Below are positions 24,283-37,109 of a DNA stretch of 54,447 bases, in pieces (the first letter of the stretch is position 1; every line of letters starts with the position of its first letter). The notes below the pieces were generated by a model. That model was not told where the DNA came from, did no database searches, and saw nothing but the letters and a program-made list of their open reading frames with translations. The position numbers and the translations under genes were made by a program. This DNA comes from an uncultured Spartobacteria bacterium (GTDB taxonomy: Bacteria; Verrucomicrobiota; Verrucomicrobiia; Chthoniobacterales; Chthoniobacteraceae). The stretch covers positions 1 to 54,447 of the forward strand of contig CAIURC010000104.1 of NCBI GenBank assembly GCA_903901425.1. Reading direction: 5' to 3'.

Positions 24283-25692
24283 TCAGTAGACACTCAGCCG
24301 AGGCGGAGAAAGCGTTGGATGGCGGTTTCCGGCAATGCCAAGCACGAGGCCGCCTTCCACCGTGATGGGGTTTTCGCGAACCAAAATCAGCGTGAGCAAC
24401 CGATTCGAATCAGTCTGGATCTGCTGTAGGAGTCTCGGATCCTCAACGACAAAAACCCCGGTCTGAACACCGCGCGGCACTGTGAACTCGCCCACCCGCA
24501 CCGCCTCAGATGTGTTCACCTTGCCTGCACTCGGGTCAAAGGCTGGCTGGGTCGACCAACTGAGCGCATCCGCGCTCCACGTGTCCGACTCGTCGCGGGT
24601 CACCGCGTAAACCGCGATCCGCGCGTCGTCTCCCTGCGAGGCATACCCGTACCCGGACGGATCGAGGTTCAAGGTGAGCCGGGCCCGCGTCGCATCCGGG
24701 ATTTTCGGTAGGGCACTGAGGTCGAACCGGAGCAGCACCTTGCGTCCGTATCCCTGCTCCAAGCAGTGCTTGAGCAGCAGCACCGTGGACGACTGGTTGT
24801 TGGCCGTGCGCGGCTCGGAGACATAGGCGGCCTCACCCCGCCCCGTGCGGGTGGTGATTTCAGAGGTGAAAATCCGGGCGGGATCTGCCGTTTCAGGGCG
24901 GCGCGGCTCCGGATGAAAAGGAATTTGGGGCAACACTTTCTCCGGAGTGATCGAAGCCATTTGCCGGGTGGTCAGCCGGAGCGGCGGCGCCCCATTGGCG
25001 TGCAAAAGTTCCACCTCGCCCTGCATCACATGCACGCTGGCATGCCCGGCGGAATCCGTACTGACTCCGAAATCTGTGCCGTGATCAATGAGAGTTGCGC
25101 TCGGTGTTTGAACGGTGAATCCGCGCGCGGCAGGGGGGACATGCGCCACGAGCGAGCCTCGGATCAGACGGCAGACATTCGGCGCCTCCACAGCCACTTC
25201 CGACGGCCCCTCCAGAGTGACCTCTGCCCCCTGTGCGAACCGGATGCGCGCGATCCCTTCGTTCAAACGGAGGGTGCCCTTGGAGAGCAGGCTTCCCTGT
25301 TCGGTGGGGAGCGAGCAACTGGCCCATTGAGCACTCTGAGACTCGACGACCTCCGCAATGCGGGGTTCTCTGCCTGCGCGGAATTGTCGGAATGCTGCGG
25401 CTGCGAAAACCAGAAACAGAGCGGCAGCCGCCCAGCGCCCAAAATTCCCCCCAAAAAAACGGCGCGTCGTGGATCCTGACGAGTTGCCAGCCGGCTCCTG
25501 CAGGAGAATCTCGCGCAGGCTTTGGGTGGAATTGGCCTGGGCTTCAAGCGCCACCTCAAGATTTGCGTACTGGAGGTAGAGTCGGGCCACGGCTTCCTCC
25601 TTCATCAAAGTGGTCTGGAGCAGTTCGCACTCTTCCTGCGTGCAGGCTCCCGCGAGGTGCCGTTGGATCAGATCGTGCCAGTCAGGAGTCAT
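24283..25692 (-). CDS. FecR-like transmembrane protein with C-terminal DNRLRE domain
   Basis: The 469-aa protein has a cytoplasmic, anti-sigma-like N-terminus (about 1-60, WHDLIQRHLAGACTQEECELLQ), one membrane helix (86-102) and a FecR beta-domain. The FecR part includes LRLNEGIARIRFAQGAEVTLEGP, SATLIDHGTDFGV and MQGEVEL (140-230). The C-terminal ~180-residue DNRLRE/CBM96-like beta-sandwich includes KVLLRFDLSALP, RARLTLNL and TWSADALSWSTQP, and may bind glycan. The start overlaps the sigma factor's stop in an ATGA. It therefore probably senses an extracellular ligand and controls the cognate sigma factor. The adjoining FAD oxidoreductase gene begins 22 bases downstream. Confidence 0.9.
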   Translation of the reverse strand: MTPDWHDLIQRHLAGACTQEECELLQTTLMKEEAVARLYLQYANLEVALEAQANSTQSLREILLQEPAGNSSGSTTRRFFGGNFGRWAAAALFLVFAAAAFRQFRAGREPRIAEVVESQSAQWASCSLPTEQGSLLSKGTLRLNEGIARIRFAQGAEVTLEGPSEVAVEAPNVCRLIRGSLVAHVPPAARGFTVQTPSATLIDHGTDFGVSTDSAGHASVHVMQGEVELLHANGAPPLRLTTRQMASITPEKVLPQIPFHPEPRRPETADPARIFTSEITTRTGRGEAAYVSEPRTANNQSSTVLLLKHCLEQGYGRKVLLRFDLSALPKIPDATRARLTLNLDPSGYGYASQGDDARIAVYAVTRDESDTWSADALSWSTQPAFDPSAGKVNTSEAVRVGEFTVPRGVQTGVFVVEDPRLLQQIQTDSNRLLTLILVRENPITVEGGLVLGIAGNRHPTLSPPRLSVY

Positions 25693-26216
25693 ACGTTTTG
25701 TTCCCGGAGCACGGTGCGTTGAACGCACTCGAGCAATGCCTGCCGGATCCGGTGGAGAATTTTGTAGAGCGCCATGGGAGTTTGACCGCGACGCTGCGCC
25801 AGCTCGTCAATCCGCGTGCCCCGGGCATAGGCACCGAGCACAAGTTCGCGCTGCGCCTGGGGCAGCTTCTGAAGGCAGCACTCCAAAGCCCTCCGCTCCG
25901 CAGCCCGCGGCTCCGATTCCGCCTGGGCGAGATCTGCGAGCCGTTGCACCAACTGATCGTCAAAGACATGCCGGTCCCGTGCACGCCGCCGCAAATGCAT
26001 CCGGACCAAATTCCGGGCAACGCCAAATGCCCAAGGCCGGAACTCCCGGGCAGATTCGAACCCCTGCCAGAGCGCGACAGCCAGATCCTGCATGACATCC
26101 GAGGACTCGTCCCGAGTTGGCAACAGCGAACGGACAAAGGCGTGCAACGCACCCTCATTTTCCGCGTACAGACGCAGAAACTGGTCATTCAGGGGGGGGA
26201 CAGAACGGGTAGTCAT
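25689..26216 (-). CDS. ECF sigma factor, Rhodopirellula/Verrucomicrobium type
   Basis: The 175-aa protein contains sigma region 2 (ALHAFVRSLL, DVMQDLAVALWQGFE, FRPWAFGVARN) and region 4 (LPQAQRELVLGAYARGTRIDELAQRRGQTPMALYK, described here by its ends). This is the pattern of the TIGR02989-type family expanded in PVC bacteria, which typically sits upstream of a FecR/LamG-like gene, as here. It overlaps that gene by four bases (ATGA), so translation is probably coupled. Its expected job is to direct RNA polymerase to a few target promoters, possibly its own operon with the FAD oxidoreductase. Confidence 0.92.
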   Translation of the reverse strand: MTTRSVPPLNDQFLRLYAENEGALHAFVRSLLPTRDESSDVMQDLAVALWQGFESAREFRPWAFGVARNLVRMHLRRRARDRHVFDDQLVQRLADLAQAESEPRAAERRALECCLQKLPQAQRELVLGAYARGTRIDELAQRRGQTPMALYKILHRIRQALLECVQRTVLREQNV

Positions 26217-28483: not shown

Positions 28484-29116
28484 TCACACCCAGCCTTTCC
28501 GGACCGCCACCGCCACGGCATCCGAGCGGGTATTGACCTCCAGTTTCTCGTAAATGCGCCGGATATAGGTATCCACGGTGTGGATGCTGAGTTCGAGGCG
28601 GCCTGCGATCTGTTTCTTGAGCATTCCGGCCACGAGCAACTTCAGAATCTCCGATTCCCTGTCGCTCAATGGCACGGATTCGACCCTTGGTGTCATTTGG
28701 TTGAACTTTTCCAGAACCCGCCGGGCCACGCGAGGATTCATGGGCGAACCTCCGGCCAGCACTGTCTGGATCGCGGCCACAACCTCCGCGGCAGATGCAG
28801 TTTTGAGGAGATACCCCCGTGCACCCGCACAGATCGCAGGGAACACTTTGGCGTCATCGTCAAACACAGTCAAAACCACCACCAGGACAGAGGGTGCCGC
28901 TGCGCGGACCCTCGCAATCCCCTCAAGGCCAGGCATTCCGGGCAGCCCCAGATCTGCCAGAAGCACGTCCGGAACAAACCCCATGCCGAGGGCGATCAGG
29001 ACTTCGTCAAAAGATCCGAACCCACGAACCCCACCGAGGTCCGGCTCCGCCTCCAAAACGGCGGTGAGACTTTTCCGAAACGCCGCATGATCCTCAACGA
29101 GCCAGACGGTTTTCAT
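28484..29116 (-). CDS. NarL/FixJ-family response regulator
   Basis: The 210-aa protein has a receiver domain with acidic pocket Glu8-Asp9, phospho-acceptor Asp55 (LLADLGLPGM), Thr83 and Lys105. A LuxR-type helix-turn-helix follows (LSDRESEILKLL..., SIHTVDTYIRRIYEKL, about 148-205). Its start overlaps the stop of the upstream histidine kinase by four bases (ATGA), so the pair is a cognate two-component system. A likely target is the divergent GH105 gene, whose promoter region holds a 22-bp palindrome. Confidence 0.93.
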   Translation of the reverse strand: MKTVWLVEDHAAFRKSLTAVLEAEPDLGGVRGFGSFDEVLIALGMGFVPDVLLADLGLPGMPGLEGIARVRAAAPSVLVVVLTVFDDDAKVFPAICAGARGYLLKTASAAEVVAAIQTVLAGGSPMNPRVARRVLEKFNQMTPRVESVPLSDRESEILKLLVAGMLKKQIAGRLELSIHTVDTYIRRIYEKLEVNTRSDAVAVAVRKGWV

Positions 29117-31086
29117 TTCCTGGGAACCTCCACCCGAATTTCCGTCCCTTTCCCGCAGGCACTCACGATGTGCAACTCTCCGCCTGTGAGCACCGCGCGT
29201 TCCCGCAGGTTGCGGAGACCGTTTCCAACGGTCCCGCCCTCGAACCCCACGCCGTCATCGTGGACAGAGAACCGGATGGCGCGGTTGTCCCAGCCGATGC
29301 GGATCCGGACGTTCTGAGCCTGGGCATGGCGGGCGACATTGTGCAGGGCTTCCCGGAACATCAGGAGAAGATGCCGCTGGATCTCCGGCGCAACCAGGGC
29401 CCGCTTGCCGCGCGCATTCTCCGGCCCGAGGCATTCTGGCCGATCGTCGCGATCCACCTCGAAATCCCAGGATACAGCGCCCAGCAATCGTTCCGCGGAT
29501 TGCCGTGCCCCCTCCACAAGGTCCTCCAGATCGCCGCAGCCTTGCATCCACCACACCATGGCATGGATGGACTCAGCAGCCTCTTCTGCAAGGCGGGCGA
29601 CCTCTTCCAGCGCCGCTTTTTCTCCCGACCCCCTGTGCGCCGCCAGTCCACTCAGCAGCCGGATACTGCCGATCTGGCTTCCGAGTTCGTCGTGCAGATC
29701 ACGGGCAACACTTTCCCGGAGCGCCTCTAACCGCGCGGCTTCTTGGCGCCGTCCACGCCAGACCAGAAAAATGCCTCCAGAAGTCAGGACTGCCGCTACC
29801 GCCCCAGCGAGCCACCAGACACGCCGGGCTGCCTCAGACAACGTGCTGTCCCGCTTTCCGGCCAGAATCCGGAACTGTTGCCTTGCCTCACAAATCTGCG
29901 CCTCCCGGGCGAGACATGATTGCCAGTCCAGAAGCCGTCCCTGGCTGACCAGACCGTCGGTCAGGAATCCCGTTCTCCAGACCGGTTTCTCCGAGAGATC
30001 CGAAGCCGATACCGAACCCGTTTCTGCCACGTTCACACCAGCGGAAAACACCTGCAGTTCACCCAGCCCAAACACATAGTCCCGCGACCGCTCCCAGAGC
30101 CGCGTCGCTGTCACACGCACATGCCTTCCCATCACACCGCCTGCCGGAAAAACCACCGGGTTGTCGCCCGGCAGAGGAAAATCGGTTCCTACGTTTTCCC
30201 AAACTTTCACCGGGTCCCGAAATGTGGCCCCGGAAGCGATCTCGATCCTGAATCTGGTTGGAAAACCGAAGGCTTCCCGTTCTGGAAAATCGGGGGGGTG
30301 AGCCGGAATGAGGCGGATTTCAGAAACTACGCATTCCTTGCCGAGATCGACCTGAACCCATTTTTCCTCGTCCGGATTGCTGGACACACTGCCGCGCCAC
30401 CCATGGGTTCCTGGCACAGACCGGTCGACTGGCAAACCCATGGCTGAAATCCCATCCACAAGACCCGCCAAGCTCCATGCCGGCGCGGTTTCACTGGAAT
30501 GCGAGGCCGTCACGCGGCAGCGCGCCGCCACATCAGCTCCGCCCGAAAACGCGATGATTTCGCCGAGCGCAAAGAACCATTGCCCTGGATGCCGGATATC
30601 CGAACCGAGTTGCATTGCCGTCACCCGGAGGTACCGGAACTCGCCATCCGCAACCGGAACGGCCACCGGCCCGAATTCCTGGGGGCGATCGTCCCAGGCG
30701 GTTTCCTGAAGCAGAACGGGAGCGAGGAATTCCGGCTCCGAGGAACCCTCGACTCGGTAGGTTGTTGGAAAACCGTAGCACCCAGGCTCGGTGGTTGGGC
30801 CCGGAAACACTGCAGGAATCAGGAACAAGGCTTCTAGCTTTCTAGGTTGCCCCAAATCCACCTGAACCCAGCGTTCGCGGTCCCGCTCCCGGGAGAACCC
30901 GGAATGAAAGCCGAGGCTTTGGGACTGGACCGGCGATATCTGCCGCGGATGGCGAGGCAGTCGTTGGCGGACCACGGCCAGTTCGCGTTCGAGCCGCGCC
31001 AGTTCGGGGTTGAGGAGGTCCATGAGTCCGGCCTCCCCGCGGACTACGGTCAGACTGAGGAACAGGCAGAGCCACCGCATCGCCAA
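29113..31086 (-). CDS. Membrane histidine kinase with tandem F5/8C (discoidin) sensor domains
   Basis: The 657-aa kinase has a signal peptide and two extracellular F5/8 type C-like domains (about 48-180 and 188-350). Each carries W-V-Q-V-D-L-G and GFPTTYR/GFPTRFR, and a closing ALGEIIAF/GLGELQVF. A truncated third copy seems to start at about 352-388. One membrane helix lies at 424-444. A HisKA_3 dimerisation segment follows with RDLHDELG (phospho-His465), then an HATPase with EALHNVARHA, DDGVGF and GNGLRNLRER. Discoidin domains usually bind carbohydrates, so glycan sensing is the natural inference. A second in-frame ATG lies at 31080. Confidence 0.9.
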   Translation of the reverse strand: MAMRWLCLFLSLTVVRGEAGLMDLLNPELARLERELAVVRQRLPRHPRQISPVQSQSLGFHSGFSRERDRERWVQVDLGQPRKLEALFLIPAVFPGPTTEPGCYGFPTTYRVEGSSEPEFLAPVLLQETAWDDRPQEFGPVAVPVADGEFRYLRVTAMQLGSDIRHPGQWFFALGEIIAFSGGADVAARCRVTASHSSETAPAWSLAGLVDGISAMGLPVDRSVPGTHGWRGSVSSNPDEEKWVQVDLGKECVVSEIRLIPAHPPDFPEREAFGFPTRFRIEIASGATFRDPVKVWENVGTDFPLPGDNPVVFPAGGVMGRHVRVTATRLWERSRDYVFGLGELQVFSAGVNVAETGSVSASDLSEKPVWRTGFLTDGLVSQGRLLDWQSCLAREAQICEARQQFRILAGKRDSTLSEAARRVWWLAGAVAAVLTSGGIFLVWRGRRQEAARLEALRESVARDLHDELGSQIGSIRLLSGLAAHRGSGEKAALEEVARLAEEAAESIHAMVWWMQGCGDLEDLVEGARQSAERLLGAVSWDFEVDRDDRPECLGPENARGKRALVAPEIQRHLLLMFREALHNVARHAQAQNVRIRIGWDNRAIRFSVHDDGVGFEGGTVGNGLRNLRERAVLTGGELHIVSACGKGTEIRVEVPRK

Positions 31087-31138
31087 AACTGTACCGTGGC
31101 GACGAGGTCCTGCAAAGCGCGGACCCGAGTGTCTAGGG

Positions 31139-31160
31139 ATGTCACGCGCGCGCGTGACAT
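31139..31160. promoter_or_regulatory. 22-bp perfect palindrome (candidate operator) in the divergent region
   Basis: The core TGTCACGCGCGCGCGTGACA (31140-31159) is a perfect inverted repeat extended by A/T on each side to 22 bp. A further overlapping palindrome TGACATGTCA (31155-31164) adds a third half-site. It lies in the 107-base gap between the divergent kinase and GH105 genes, 34 bases before the GH105 start, so it is a good candidate binding site for the response regulator or another dimeric regulator. Confidence 0.6.
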
Positions 31161-31193
31161 GTCATCTGGCTGAGGTCTGCTATTCTGGGCGCC

Positions 31194-32429
31194 ATGAAGT
31201 TCCCAGGACTCCTCTGCTGCATTGGTCTTTTTCTCGCTGGCACCGCGCCGATTCTTCCAGCAAACGAGGCTCTGCTCCGTGCCGTTGCGGACTCTGTTCT
31301 GCAGCAGAGCACGCGGCGTCTGATTGACCATCGTTCGGGTCAGACCCACGAAGATTCCGCAGGCCTTGAGCCGGCGGCCGAAATCAGCGTGGAGAGCAAG
31401 TTCAACGCGTGGTTTTACCAGACCTGGCTCCTTGCGGATGGCATGCGGCATGTGGCTGAGGCGCTGGGAGAGCCGCGGTACCGCAATTATGGCGAAGCGA
31501 ACCTCGATTTTTTTTACCAACACCTCCCGTTCTTCGAGGCGCAACATCAGGCCGGCTTCAAAGCCGCCCCGGCCGGGGACGGCAAACTCTCCCCGGTTGG
31601 CCTGCACTTTGAAATCACCAGCCTCTGGCACACGGGCCTTGCACCGCTGGTCGTTGAACGCCATGCCGCATCCGGTGACAGCCGCTATCTTCCCTACCTT
31701 CATCGGCTCGATGTGTTTCTCCGCACAAATCCCCGCTTCCCGGACGGCACCCTGTATCGGCCGGGAAAAGGTTTGATGACCGATGACGTCTACATGACCG
31801 TGCCGCTTCTGGTGCGAAAGTGGCGGGCCACAGGGCAGGGCGAGTTCCTTGAGGATGCGGCGCAACAGGTGTCCGGCACTTACCAGCGCCTGCTCGATCC
31901 GCAATCCCGGTTGCTCAGCCACCTGTGGGACCTCAAAACCGGGGCGCCGGCTGGAGAATTCTGGGGACGCGGCAATGGCTGGGCGGTGCTGGCCTGCTGC
32001 GACCTTCTGGATGCGCTGCCTGCCGAACATCCGCTCAGGCCCCGCATTCTGGAAGTTTTCCGGACCCACATGGACGGGGTCCGCCGTTGCTCAGACCCCG
32101 CAGGCGGCTGGCACCAGGTGTTGGACCATTCCGAGTCATGGCTGGAGACATCCGCCACCGGGATGCTGACATTCGGCCTCGCCCACGGTGTGAATGCGGG
32201 GTGGCTGGACCGCTCCTTTCTGGACACTGCACAGCGAGGGTGGGAGGCGCTGGCACACAAGGTGATCCAACAAAACGGCCTCGCGGACCTGATCGATGTC
32301 TGTGCCTCCACAGACACGGGTTCACTCGACTACTACCTCACCAGACCCCGGCTCCAAGGCGATCTCCACGGCTTTGGCAGTTTTCTTCTGGCGGGCGCTG
32401 AGATCTGCCGCGCACCCCACACCCCCTAA
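31194..32429 (+). CDS. Glycoside hydrolase family 105 (unsaturated rhamnogalacturonyl hydrolase-like)
   Basis: The 411-aa protein has an N-terminal signal sequence (1-23) and an (alpha/alpha)6-barrel of the GH88/105 type. Features are KFNAWFYQTWLLADG, LMTDDVYMTVPLLVRKW (Asp197/Asp198), EFWGRGNGWAV (255-265), and the C-terminal GSLDYYLTRPR and HGFGSFLLAGAE. These enzymes remove the unsaturated uronic-acid residue that polysaccharide lyases leave on pectin- or ulvan-type oligosaccharides by hydrating the double bond. The gene faces the sensor kinase operon across a palindrome and is followed by a short tandem repeat and the FAD oxidoreductase. Confidence 0.9.
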   Translation: MKFPGLLCCIGLFLAGTAPILPANEALLRAVADSVLQQSTRRLIDHRSGQTHEDSAGLEPAAEISVESKFNAWFYQTWLLADGMRHVAEALGEPRYRNYGEANLDFFYQHLPFFEAQHQAGFKAAPAGDGKLSPVGLHFEITSLWHTGLAPLVVERHAASGDSRYLPYLHRLDVFLRTNPRFPDGTLYRPGKGLMTDDVYMTVPLLVRKWRATGQGEFLEDAAQQVSGTYQRLLDPQSRLLSHLWDLKTGAPAGEFWGRGNGWAVLACCDLLDALPAEHPLRPRILEVFRTHMDGVRRCSDPAGGWHQVLDHSESWLETSATGMLTFGLAHGVNAGWLDRSFLDTAQRGWEALAHKVIQQNGLADLIDVCASTDTGSLDYYLTRPRLQGDLHGFGSFLLAGAEICRAPHTP

Positions 32430-32506
32430 TCCACACCCCCTAATCCACACCCCCTAATCCACACCCACCCGCAAACCCATCCCCCCATCCCCCCATCCCC
32501 CCATCC
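32418..32506 (+). repeat. Tandem repeats at the end of GH105 and before the next gene
   Basis: Three near-identical 14-base units (CACCCCCTAATCCA) start inside the GH105 stop region (32418-32461). They are followed by several CCCCCCAT-type 7-8-base units (about 32477-32506). Each first-type unit contains TAA. These low-complexity repeats fill the gap to the FAD oxidoreductase start at 32514. Confidence 0.85.
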
Positions 32507-32513
32507 CACCCCC

Positions 32514-34175
32514 ATGAACCCATCATCGCCCCTCCGTTGTTCTTCCAGACGCCAGTTCCTGTCTGCATCAGGTTCCGCGTTCCTTGGAACCGTTCTCTGG
32601 CAGGCTGCCAGCGCTCAGGAATCTCGAGTCGCCGATGTCTGTGTCTATGGCGGCACGGCAAGCGGCGTCATGGCGGCGGTGGCTGCAGCCCGCGAAGGTG
32701 CGCGGGTCGTGCTGGTGGAACCCTCCCGGTGGCTGGGAGGGATGACCGGCGGCGGCCTGATCCATATCGACTGGGGCCGCAAGGAGGCCGTGGGCGGTTC
32801 CACGCGCGGGATCTTGGAGCAGGGCCTGAACGACCCCCAGTACCGCACACTGTTCACGCGGCTCCTTCAGGAACACCGGATCGAAGTGGTATTTGAGCAC
32901 CGGCTGTGTGCCGTAGAAAAAGAGGGGACCCGACTGAGGGCGGCGCGGTTTGAGTGCGCGCCACCCGATGCGCTGGGTGTTCCGGCTGAAACCGCCTCCA
33001 GACCAGAAGCGCTCCGGGTCACGGCCTCGGTATTCTTGGACTGCACCTACGAGGGCGATCTGCTCGCTCTGGCTGGTGTTTCCCACAGCCACGGCCGCGA
33101 GTCCCGGGAGATGTACCGGGAATCGCTCGCCGGCAGCCAGGAATTGATGACGGTTTATCCCATCGACCCGTACAAGGTTCCGGGCAACCCGCGCAGCGGT
33201 CTTCTGCCACTGCTCCAGGACCTGCCCCACCTGCCCGAGGGCAGCGCGGACGGGCTCACCATGGGCTATGGGTTCCGCTGGAAATTCAGCAAAGCAGCCA
33301 ACCGGCTCCCGATCGAGCCGCCGGAGGATGATGATCCCGGGACCTACGAACTTTTCCGGCGCGGCTTTCAGAACGGAGTCGACATGTTTTCTGGCCGCCA
33401 AATGAAGTACGCGGTTGGGAACTGGGAACCGACCCGGACGAGCTTTTACAGCTACGGCTCGGGCAACCTCAGCCGAACTCTGTGGGCCCCCACCAACTAC
33501 GGATCGAATGCCGGGTATCCCACCGGGAACTACCGGACCCGGGCCCGGATTTGGAGGGACCAAATCCGGTTTGTGCAGGGGATGACCCATTTTATGCGGA
33601 CAGATCCTGTGGTGCCGGAGAAGTGGCGAGTCATGGCGGCAGGCGTGGGCATGGAGCCGGGCATTTTTGATGAAACCCGGGGGTACCCGCACCAGTTGTA
33701 TGTCCGCGAGGCGCGCAGGATGCGGTCTTCTGTGGTGGTGACCCAGGCCGACATGGCCGGGACTGGGACTGTGCCGGATCCGGTCGGGCTGGCCTCCTAC
33801 GGGGTGGATGAATGGCCTTACGCCACGATTCCGTTTGACGGAAAAGTGGCCTTGCAGGGCGGCTATTTTTCAGAGGTCTGGCTCAATGAGGAAACCCGCG
33901 GCATCTACCAGATCCCCTACCGGGCACTCACCCCGCTCCGTTCCGAGTGCCAGAACCTTCTGGTACCGGTGTGCATTTCAGCCAGTCACATTGCGATGAC
34001 CTCGGTCCGGATGGAGCCGGTCTGGATGATTTTGGGCGATTCGGCCGGAACCGCCGCGGCCATGGCCGCGCGGGCGGGGATCGCGGTTCAGGACGTGCCG
34101 TACCCGGAACTCCGTTCCAAACTCATCGCTCTCCAGCAGCGACTGGAACGGCCCGAAGCTCTCAGGAACGCCTGA
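32514..34175 (+). CDS. Tat-exported FAD-dependent oxidoreductase (second paralogue)
   Basis: The 553-aa protein has a twin-arginine signal (SRRQFLSASGSAFLG, Arg-Arg at 12-13) and an FAD_oxidored core. Motifs are VCVYGGTASGVMAA, GGMTGGGLIHIDWG, DCTYEGDLLALAG and NLLVPVCISASHIAMTSVRMEPVWM. These are the same motifs, in the same order, as the protein at 22590, so the two are paralogues. The Tat signal implies that the protein folds with bound FAD in the cytoplasm before export. Position after the GH105 gene suggests that it acts on a sugar or uronate in the same pathway. The exact reaction is unknown. Confidence 0.88.
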   Translation: MNPSSPLRCSSRRQFLSASGSAFLGTVLWQAASAQESRVADVCVYGGTASGVMAAVAAAREGARVVLVEPSRWLGGMTGGGLIHIDWGRKEAVGGSTRGILEQGLNDPQYRTLFTRLLQEHRIEVVFEHRLCAVEKEGTRLRAARFECAPPDALGVPAETASRPEALRVTASVFLDCTYEGDLLALAGVSHSHGRESREMYRESLAGSQELMTVYPIDPYKVPGNPRSGLLPLLQDLPHLPEGSADGLTMGYGFRWKFSKAANRLPIEPPEDDDPGTYELFRRGFQNGVDMFSGRQMKYAVGNWEPTRTSFYSYGSGNLSRTLWAPTNYGSNAGYPTGNYRTRARIWRDQIRFVQGMTHFMRTDPVVPEKWRVMAAGVGMEPGIFDETRGYPHQLYVREARRMRSSVVVTQADMAGTGTVPDPVGLASYGVDEWPYATIPFDGKVALQGGYFSEVWLNEETRGIYQIPYRALTPLRSECQNLLVPVCISASHIAMTSVRMEPVWMILGDSAGTAAAMAARAGIAVQDVPYPELRSKLIALQQRLERPEALRNA

Positions 34176-34181
34176 CCCTGA

Positions 34182-37103
34182 TCAGTGCGGAACCGGGATG
34201 GACTTCAGATAGGCCACGATGTCGGCCACCTTCTGCGCATCCAAGCCGAGTTGCGAAGGTTCGTACATGAGCGAACGCCCCAAGGGCCGCAGCGATGCGA
34301 CCCGGCTCTTTGGCACCCGCTGGACGACCCCGCCCACGCACTTCATCACGACTGGATCCCCGTTGGCCACCACCATCCCGATGATGGTCAACCCGTCCTT
34401 GGTCTTCAGTTCCATTCCGTCGTAGCCATGGGAAATGTCGGAGGACGGATTCAAAATGGCGTTCACGATGACCTCACGCGGCTGTTGCGCACCGAAGGCG
34501 GTGAGGTCGGGACCGTAATCCGGTCCGGTGCCGCCGACTTGGTGGCAGGACAAACACGCGCCGAACGCCGCCTGTCCGCGGGCTGCATCGGCAGAGAGTT
34601 TCAGGATTTCCTCCGTGGGCGGCAGCTTGGGTGCGTCCTCCGGAATGGGCGGGAACTCGACTGCAGCCAGTTGCACTGTGTCGGGATCGTAGACGCCGGA
34701 TGCTTTGAGGCCTTCGGCGACCTCGAACTCTTTCCAGTCGTTGCCCCTCCGACTGAGCAGCCACCCGAGTGCTTCCTCACGAGCGGCCTGGTTTTTTGAA
34801 GCCACCTCGATCATCGCTGCAGCGGCTTCGCGGGTGGGGATGAAAGCGAGCGCAGTCAAAGCGAGGCTGCGTTGTGCGGGCGCGAGGTCAGGGTTCAACA
34901 ACCGCTTCTGGAGCGCCGGCACGGCTTGGGGCGGATGAAGCCGCCATGCGATCCAGGAGAACGTGTCGCTCCACTTTTCAGGGTCAGAGCCAAGTTCCTT
35001 GGCAAGCGCATCGTACACGGCAGATTCTTTGCCTTCGCAACCCATCCCGAATGCCTCGAGGTAGGCGCGGTCGCTTCCGTCGAACTGGCGGCCGATCTGG
35101 ACCAGGGCTTCCAGACTTTTTTCCGCCGGAACATCCCGGAGGGCGATTGCCACCTCGCGGCGCACCACCGGCGAGGGATCGCCTGCCATCCGCTTCACCA
35201 GGGGTTCCAGAGGTTGAGCCGCACGCCGCAGGGCGCGGAAAGCCACCATCCGCTTCTGGTCTTCGTCAGAGTTCAGCAGCGCCTCGACTTTCTCCACCCC
35301 CTTGGATCCCATCTGGGCCAGCAGCCAAGTTGCGCGGGCCGCCAGATACGGGTTGCTGTCCTCCAGCAATTTTGCAACTGCGGGAACGGCCTTGGCTCCC
35401 TGCGCTTTCAGGCGGACAAAGCCGCTGTGCCGGACATTCACCGCGGGACTCTTCAAAGCCGCGATCTGGCCTTCGGTCGTGGTCAGGTCCAGCTTGGGCA
35501 CCTTGGACTGAAATCCTTTGGGCGCAATCCGGTAAATCGCACCGGTGTACCGATCATCCAATGTCGCATGGCCGCCCACCCGGGGGTCAAACCAGTCCGC
35601 CACGTACAGCGCGCCATCCGGCCCCACCGCGATGTCGCTCGGACGGAACTTGGTTTCGATCTCGCCCGTCAGCTTTTGGCCGCGGCCCAAGAAATCGGAG
35701 CCTGAGAATTTGCCTTCCTTGTTGGAAGTCAGGAAGGCGAACCGTTCCAATTTCCACCCGGCGCCTTCCGGTTTGGGGCGATAGCCGTAGACGACGTTTC
35801 TGCCCGCTTCGCAAGCGAGGAGGAGGCCGTGCCATGCGTCCCCAAGGGCACCATTTTCGTAGAAGGCGACGCCCGTGGGTGAACCACCGCCATACACATC
35901 GCCGGCAGGCATCGTGCCTGGATCTTCCTGGCGCCATTCGGCGACGGCGGTGGGCTGGCCGGGTCGACGGTCGGCGCGCCACCCGCGGAGGCCGTCTGCG
36001 GAGACGAACCCGGCGTTGCCGCCCTCCATGACGCAGGAAACGCGGCAGGCTGGAGGATCGTCGTTGTCGCTCTGGAAGACGTCGCCCAGCGAGGTGACCG
36101 CCTGCTCGTAGCTGTTCCGGAAGTTGTGTCCAATGATCTCGACCTTGGAACCGTCGGGACGCATCCGTGCGGCGAAACCTCCGATCCAGACATGGCCGTC
36201 ATCGCTCTTCTGGCCGGCAATGTCGCGGGGTTTGAATTTTTCGCCGCCTTTGAGTGGGTAATCGTAGTCGCTCCCCATCCGGAATGTTTTGCCGGATTTG
36301 TCGGTAAAGAGCGCGCCGGTGTTGCCTTGGTTAAAATACCAGAAGCCGTCCGGGCCCGCGGTGACGCTGTGCAGGCTGTGGTCGTGCTGACGGCCGCCGA
36401 ACCCGGTCAACAGGGCTACCCGCGAATCGCCCTTGGCATCAAATTTTCCATTCCGGTTTTTGTCGGTGTAAAGGAGGAGATCCGGCGGTTGGGAAACCAC
36501 GACCTGATTGTCGAACACGGCCACTCCGAGCGGCGCCTCAAGGCCGGTGTCCTGAACAAAAACGGTGCTTTTGTCGGCTTTACCATCCGCGTTGGTATCC
36601 TCCAAGACGACCACGCGGTCTCCCTCGGGACGGCGTCCCGCCTTGCTTCGGTAATTGACGCCTTCAGCGACCCAGAGCCGGCCTTTGGCATCAAAGGAGA
36701 TGTTGGTGGGATTCGCGAGCATGGGCGAAGCGGCCCAGAGCGTGATCTCCAACCCTTCCGGCAGCGTGAAAAGCCCGGTTGGAACCTCGGTTCTGGGGTC
36801 TTCGGGGAGCACAGGCGCCGCCGGGGCCGGCGCTGCCTTCACCGCGGGCTTTGGGTCTCCGGTCTTGGGCGGTTCCTCCGGTTTTGCCGAGGCAGCCGGG
36901 ACAGCTTTTTCCACCGGTTTCTCCACCGGCTTTTCGGCAGGCTTGGCGGGGCTGGCTGCGGGATTTTTGGCGGCTCTGGCGGCCTCGGCCTGAACCTGTT
37001 TGCGGTTTTTGGGTTTGGGTACCGCGGATTCAGTGCCAGACTCGGCCAGAGCGCTTGCGGTGAGAGCAGAAAAAGAACTGAGGAGGACGAGGCTGCGTTT
37101 CAT
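34182..37103 (-). CDS. Secreted PVC-type sugar-dehydrogenase/HEAT-repeat/cytochrome c fusion
   Basis: A signal peptide is followed by a long Ala/Pro/Lys/Glu-rich linker (to about residue 95). A membrane-bound-dehydrogenase/L-sorbosone-dehydrogenase beta-propeller follows (LPEGLEITLWAASPMLANPTN-type opening, PSDIAVGPDGALYVADW), with HEAT repeats in the middle. The C-terminal cytochrome c domain has CLSCHQVGG at about 850 (the heme-binding CxxCH) and CVGGVVQRVPKS near the end. This domain order is characteristic of Planctomycetes and Verrucomicrobia. A periplasmic sugar- or alcohol-oxidation role is inferred. An in-frame ATG at 37109 would add Met-Pro to the start; I chose 37103 because Met-Lys-Arg suits the signal peptide. 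It converges with the FAD oxidoreductase gene. Confidence 0.9.
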   Translation of the reverse strand: MKRSLVLLSSFSALTASALAESGTESAVPKPKNRKQVQAEAARAAKNPAASPAKPAEKPVEKPVEKAVPAASAKPEEPPKTGDPKPAVKAAPAPAAPVLPEDPRTEVPTGLFTLPEGLEITLWAASPMLANPTNISFDAKGRLWVAEGVNYRSKAGRRPEGDRVVVLEDTNADGKADKSTVFVQDTGLEAPLGVAVFDNQVVVSQPPDLLLYTDKNRNGKFDAKGDSRVALLTGFGGRQHDHSLHSVTAGPDGFWYFNQGNTGALFTDKSGKTFRMGSDYDYPLKGGEKFKPRDIAGQKSDDGHVWIGGFAARMRPDGSKVEIIGHNFRNSYEQAVTSLGDVFQSDNDDPPACRVSCVMEGGNAGFVSADGLRGWRADRRPGQPTAVAEWRQEDPGTMPAGDVYGGGSPTGVAFYENGALGDAWHGLLLACEAGRNVVYGYRPKPEGAGWKLERFAFLTSNKEGKFSGSDFLGRGQKLTGEIETKFRPSDIAVGPDGALYVADWFDPRVGGHATLDDRYTGAIYRIAPKGFQSKVPKLDLTTTEGQIAALKSPAVNVRHSGFVRLKAQGAKAVPAVAKLLEDSNPYLAARATWLLAQMGSKGVEKVEALLNSDEDQKRMVAFRALRRAAQPLEPLVKRMAGDPSPVVRREVAIALRDVPAEKSLEALVQIGRQFDGSDRAYLEAFGMGCEGKESAVYDALAKELGSDPEKWSDTFSWIAWRLHPPQAVPALQKRLLNPDLAPAQRSLALTALAFIPTREAAAAMIEVASKNQAAREEALGWLLSRRGNDWKEFEVAEGLKASGVYDPDTVQLAAVEFPPIPEDAPKLPPTEEILKLSADAARGQAAFGACLSCHQVGGTGPDYGPDLTAFGAQQPREVIVNAILNPSSDISHGYDGMELKTKDGLTIIGMVVANGDPVVMKCVGGVVQRVPKSRVASLRPLGRSLMYEPSQLGLDAQKVADIVAYLKSIPVPH

Positions 37104-37109
37104 GGGCAT

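Follow-up and report, generated by a model that had tools for sequence, protein, structure and literature searches.

NarX/NarL, UhpB/UhpA and other HisKA_3-NarL/FixJ pairs combine a kinase carrying HisKA_3 and HATPase_c domains with an adjacent GerE-type regulator, and in the polysaccharide utilization loci of Bacteroidetes a SusD-linked hybrid two-component system couples periplasmic glycan sensing to the activation of degradation genes. Verrucomicrobiota and Planctomycetes are degraders of much complex algal and plant polysaccharide; to our knowledge, little is understood of their means of sensing it. Here, we describe a locus of an uncultured Spartobacteria bacterium (contig CAIURC010000104.1 of assembly GCA_903901425.1, positions 1 to 54,447, hereafter the window), in which a histidine kinase with a discoidin sensor and its regulator face a gene for an unsaturated uronyl hydrolase of glycoside hydrolase family 105 (GH105). 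The pair resembles NarX/NarL and UhpB/UhpA in its signalling domains, but discoidin modules replace the nitrate-sensing or transporter-coupled input, the operator sequence is its own, and the partner genes encode cytochrome-type/DUF1501 pairs or carbohydrate-active enzymes (CAZymes). It is akin to the Bacteroidetes loci in its proposed role, whereas kinase and regulator are separate genes and a discoidin sensor takes the place of Reg_prop/Y_Y_Y. A preliminary description of the locus had set it apart from SusD-based systems, and indeed a search of this genome for SusD (PF07980) gave no match. The locus comprises:

29113..31086, minus strand: discoidin-sensor histidine kinase (N-terminal signal/helix, two discoidin C-segments with an N-segment after each, transmembrane segment, HisKA_3, HATPase_c)
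29902..30036, minus strand: kinase residues 351-395, the so-called truncated third F5/8C module, an N-terminal-type discoidin segment (NvA..vtas..W..LvDG) before the juxtamembrane helix
28484..29116, minus strand: NarL/FixJ-type response regulator with receiver (Asp55) and GerE helix-turn-helix (Pfam Response_reg 1.2e-16, GerE 1.6e-16)
31139-31160, intergenic, no strand: predicted operator, the 22-bp perfect palindrome ATGTCACGCGCGCGCGTGACAT (family consensus GTCACGC-N4-GCGTGAC)
31181..31186, plus strand: TATTCT, a -10-like box 7 nt before the GH105 ATG
31194..32429, plus strand: secreted GH88/GH105-type unsaturated uronyl hydrolase, the predicted target (PF07470, E 6e-59)

We propose, with a probability of roughly two in three, that kinase and regulator form an autoregulated two-component system, one of a discoidin-sensor kinase family, which is operator-linked to GH105. 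The discoidin (CBM32-like) modules would bind an extracellular or periplasmic glycan, and binding would alter the phosphorylation of the regulator. A phosphorylated regulator dimer would then bind GTCACGC-N4-GCGTGAC over the -35 region (centre at about -42 to -44), activate GH105 and probably also the oxidoreductase gene that follows it, and, on the opposite flank of the operator, control its own promoter.

Key to this proposal is the palindrome between the two divergent genes. Among the perfect palindromes in the 675 kb of sequence examined it is the longest, and its core GTCACGCG-NN-CGCGTGAC occurs a single time in the 5.1-Mb genome. Inverted repeats with an identical half-site lie upstream of sister kinases, and a motif search returned sites of the GTCACGC-N4-GCGTGAC type before kinases and, as a separate set, before their PSD1 partners; across these promoters the half-site TCACGC recurs with a 4-nt spacer, the central four bases not being conserved. 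With a matrix trained without the window, the window site scores 19.5 bits and ranks 12th among 941k positions. Each of the 12 highest-scoring sites lies at the promoter of a family kinase, a PSD1 gene or GH105, and a Markov background predicts none at this score level; most of the 12 belonged to the training set, those outside it being L062 (23.0 bits, upstream region of a PSD1 gene) and the window.

The spacing of the sites is conserved as well. From operator centre to partner ATG we measured 44, 44, 44, 44, 45, 45, 43, 42, 45 and 47 nt, and 44 nt for GH105, while the distance to the kinase ATG is 69 nt in the window and 65-69 nt in most loci. In three loci (L048, L049, L067) the operator stands at two promoters, that of the kinase and that of DUF1553; in L043, L052 and, again, L049 it lies between divergent kinase and DUF1553 genes. 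The TATTCT box suggests that the GH105 transcript is leaderless or has a very short leader. A TAnnnT box 5-8 nt before the ATG is present in 8 of 12 operator targets, at 6-7 nt in these eight, compared with 26 of 387 background genes (P 1.6e-7), a position that suggests the geometry of an activator; a scan of the kinase-GH105 intergenic region for the sigma-70 consensus gave no match. In its recognition-helix region the window regulator is nearly identical to that of L048, the locus that has the same operator and the nearest-relative kinase. Since partner genes of sister kinases have this motif before them at an equal spacing (44 nt), it is probable that GH105 is dependent on the regulator, and its predicted control by this system is well supported by comparative footprinting. 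The palindrome, already noted between the two genes in the preliminary description, behaves like the operator of the system, in a position suited to GH105 control.

In a genome-wide pattern scan, a high motif score together with an ATG at 44 nt was found only at sites on contigs C104, C30 and C134. The last of these lies before a decayed PSD1::DUF1501 fusion of the same genome (L114:1500-2217, G000:C134 ~22835), with frameshifts and stops downstream; the operator of this relic target is still intact, scores 25 bits and stands 44 nt ahead of the ATG. The pattern CACGYNNNNRCGTG added one site of 18.5 bits (L128) with no gene start nearby. A genome-wide regulon drawn from the loose pattern YACGCNNNNGCGTR was rejected, since this pattern alone is uninformative: it matched 14 sites, whereas its reversed control matched 23. 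We likewise rejected a single operator for the whole kinase family, as other sub-clades have different inverted repeats: in L063 and L068, CCCCCGAAAACTCGGGGG lies between the kinase and the DUF1592/DUF1552 genes, which suggests a second operator class for that sub-clade.

By its sequence, the kinase is an intact membrane protein whose modules lie outside the inner membrane. Pfam assigns F5_F8_type_C to residues 196-334, HisKA_3 to 457-511 and HATPase_c to 570-656; the phospho-acceptor His 465 in the dimerisation domain, the N-box Asn 583 and the G-boxes are all present, and one transmembrane segment spans residues ~423-443. Translation probably starts at the ATG at 31080 rather than at the TTG at 31086. 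At its 3' end the gene is coupled to the regulator gene through an ATGA overlap, as noted in the preliminary description, and the encoded receiver and GerE domains complete a HisKA_3/NarL-FixJ two-component pair, for which phosphotransfer and specific DNA binding to the shared motif are predicted. The kinase is not an ortholog of NarX or NarQ by our test (NarQ 42 of 553 bits, NarX 32 of 578 bits, the kinase core only), and the best NCBIfam relatives, UhpB/NarQ/NarX and MadR/MctR/NarL, all score below cut-off. The linker ahead of the ATPase domain holds 12 extra residues (551-562, 29401-29436) that none of the 33 aligned relatives has.

Two F5/8C modules and a truncated third had been described in the sensor. 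Module 2 reaches 34.8 bits in Pfam (cut-off 28.2); module 1 (~58-183) was missed by Pfam and is recognised as a repeat of module 2 within the same protein (38% identity, E 3.4e-12). The third segment (~351-395) exists and is conserved across the 34 aligned kinase homologs. In the sensor, a C-terminal discoidin segment (GYHS..KWVQVDLG ... LGE..VF) comes first each time, and an N-terminal-type segment (NvA..vtas..W..LVDG) comes after it. Because one N-segment matches each C-segment, the third module is probably no truncated copy; more likely it is the displaced N-segment of a permuted discoidin unit, or else it closes module 1. The same C-then-N order is seen a single time, flanked by predicted coiled-coil helices, in PSD1 (DUF1553) proteins adjoining sister kinases. 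AlphaFold models, one of the sensor and one of an isolated unit (predicted local distance difference test, pLDDT, 58 and 64), support the discoidin fold of the C-segments and leave the N-segments unplaced. Compared with CBM32 and F5_F8_type_C modules elsewhere, fold and conserved core are in common, whereas here they lie within a membrane kinase and are apparently permuted. A Bacteroidetes GH78-type protein (L029:2857-6210, named by eye from its sequence) has the same C-segment/N-segment unit.

Is this sensor a common motif among related bacteria? The genome carries five further full-length paralogs (31-39% identity), hence six members, further members occur in genomes of the same bacterial family, and of 387 genomes sampled from the whole phylum, 45 have the sensor. 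Its whole architecture is conserved in the alignment of 34 kinases, which come from genomes of this bacterial family, and a regulator gene lies 3' of nearly all kinases of the family. We found no paper joining discoidin, histidine kinase and Verrucomicrobia in a literature search. Judged from these comparisons, the discoidin kinases appear to be a large and previously unnoticed sensor family of Verrucomicrobiota type, in which the members of one group would share one operator. In L098:1944-7964, two discoidin kinase-regulator pairs stand in tandem beside a PKD-domain protein.

The recurrent neighbours of the family are cytochrome pairs of planctomycete type: PSCyt1-PSCyt2(DUF1549)-PSD1(DUF1553) with DUF1501, and PSD3/4/5-PSCyt3 with DUF1552 (the DUF1592+DUF1552 pairs). 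A PSD1 gene adjoins 11 of the 34 kinases (0.7 expected) and a PSD4 gene 5 of 34 (0.3 expected), the expectations assuming a gene density of 930 per Mb; the association of the kinases with DUF1553 is beyond chance. The genome contains 51 PSD1-domain genes. Some of the PSCyt/DUF1553 partners carry the kinase's own discoidin unit and share its operator; these proteins are the apparent targets, the kinase being the sensor. Among the neighbours of distant family members are GH115, two GH78, GH2, a raffinose-synthase-like protein, sulfatases and proteins of autotransporter type. The window kinase branches at the base of a supported clade (95/85), and most other kinases in this clade have PSD1-DUF1501 alongside. 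As GH105 sits in the slot taken by DUF1549/DUF1553-DUF1501 operons at sister loci, it appears to have been recruited, in this lineage, to a switch that was already there. A conserved partnership with GH105 was rejected, for only 3 of the 15 genomes contain PF07470. Given that GH105 stands alone as a recruit and that the switch normally serves other genes (the nearest sisters mostly have DUF1549/DUF1553-DUF1501, and CAZymes and sulfatases come farther out), the distinct route to uronic-acid polysaccharides proposed in the preliminary description is unsupported.

Several observations weigh against the proposed glycan-sensing, operator-linked switch. GH105 adjoins the kinase family in this genome only, among 15 compared. 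Next to several kinases there is neither a CAZyme gene nor a cytochrome-type gene, some kinases have no detectable operator of this type, and other sub-clades seemingly have other motifs or none; a strict-pattern scan of 40 family genomes gave five exact sites, three of them at family kinases and two probably due to chance. The enrichment P values overstate the case, because related loci were treated as independent. Discoidin domains also bind proteins and lipids. The isolation of GH105, together with sister kinases that have the operator with no obvious partner (L061, at a contig end, and L073, with none), would fit an operator that serves kinase-regulator autoregulation only, GH105 being a divergent bystander. 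We consider this improbable: the GH105 ATG lies exactly at the modal partner distance from the centre and not at the kinase-side distance of 65-69 nt, and its -10-like box is in register. A third reading takes the palindrome for a structural (CG)n element, or for a site bound by some unrelated regulator, unconnected with the two-component system. It has a CG run at its centre, and chance perfect palindromes of such length can arise in a GC-rich genome; we consider this reading very improbable, as the half-site and its 4-nt spacer recur at sister kinase and partner promoters and the four central bases are not conserved.

What the sensor reads bears on the same proposal. It could be another surface or envelope cue, or a discoidin-bearing cytochrome-type protein recognised by domain-domain contact, rather than a free glycan. 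By sequence, the closest PDB relatives of the sensor are the neuropilin b1/b2 domains, which are protein binders, and its top Foldseek match is allantoicase; the presence of the kinase's discoidin unit in partner DUF1553 proteins fits such contact, and F5_F8_type_C in PSCyt proteins has been classed among protein-protein interaction domains (PMC5615132). We nonetheless regard a non-glycan cue as rather unlikely, given that the VIA matches are mostly CBM32 and other sugar-binding modules, that the kinase-type unit is also found in the Bacteroidetes GH78-type protein and that CAZyme and sulfatase neighbours recur. Although the fold matches rest on modest models (pLDDT as above), sensor modules that bind glycan are the likely case, because sequence and fold searches alike return CBM32 and other sugar-binding modules; the similarity of the extracellular domains to glycan-binding modules anticipated in the preliminary description was found.

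Extending the glycan-sensing proposal, we speculate, at odds of roughly one in three, that the sensor kinases and their extracellular cytochrome-type DUF1549/DUF1553 targets share a circularly permuted discoidin module for one ligand, that the operator defines the first regulon for those proteins, and that GH105 links this regulon to the breakdown of uronic-acid glycans. PSCyt genes of freshwater Verrucomicrobia, some of which encode carbohydrate-binding modules and lie near sulfatases, are of unknown function (PMC5615132), and our literature search found no paper tying DUF1553/DUF1501 genes to a regulator, kinase or operator. A sensor family with a recognisable operator would allow regulon prediction and offer an approach to the function of DUF1549, DUF1553 and DUF1501, and the ligand of the sensor, once found, would reveal what triggers the DUF1549/DUF1553 effector proteins.

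For the hydrolase itself, the best PDB matches (phmmer) are 3k11 (3.9e-45) and YteR, a GH105 enzyme (4.8e-32), and the choice between GH88 and GH105 is based on these nearest matches. Its Asp197 aligns with the Asp of 'WLDGLYM' in YteR, which we take to be the catalytic Asp143, so that the PF07470 match is accompanied by a putative catalytic Asp. The gene that follows is:

32514..34175, plus strand: flavin adenine dinucleotide (FAD)-dependent oxidoreductase (PF12831, 1.8e-81)

It lies on the GH105 strand after an 84-bp gap and is probably in one transcription unit with GH105. Two short tandem arrays, of CCACACCCCCTAAT (x3.6) and CCCATCCC (x4), fill the space between the GH105 stop and the oxidoreductase start (32417-32507). 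Next to this pair, 34182-37109 encodes a PVC-type heme-binding protein (TIGR02604/TIGR02603, DUF7133, HEAT repeats), and in L074 a DUF7133 protein adjoins the kinase too. On the other side of the locus, at 24283-26216, a sigma-70-like factor and a FecR domain protein with a CBM96 module may form a second surface-signalling, carbohydrate-linked set.

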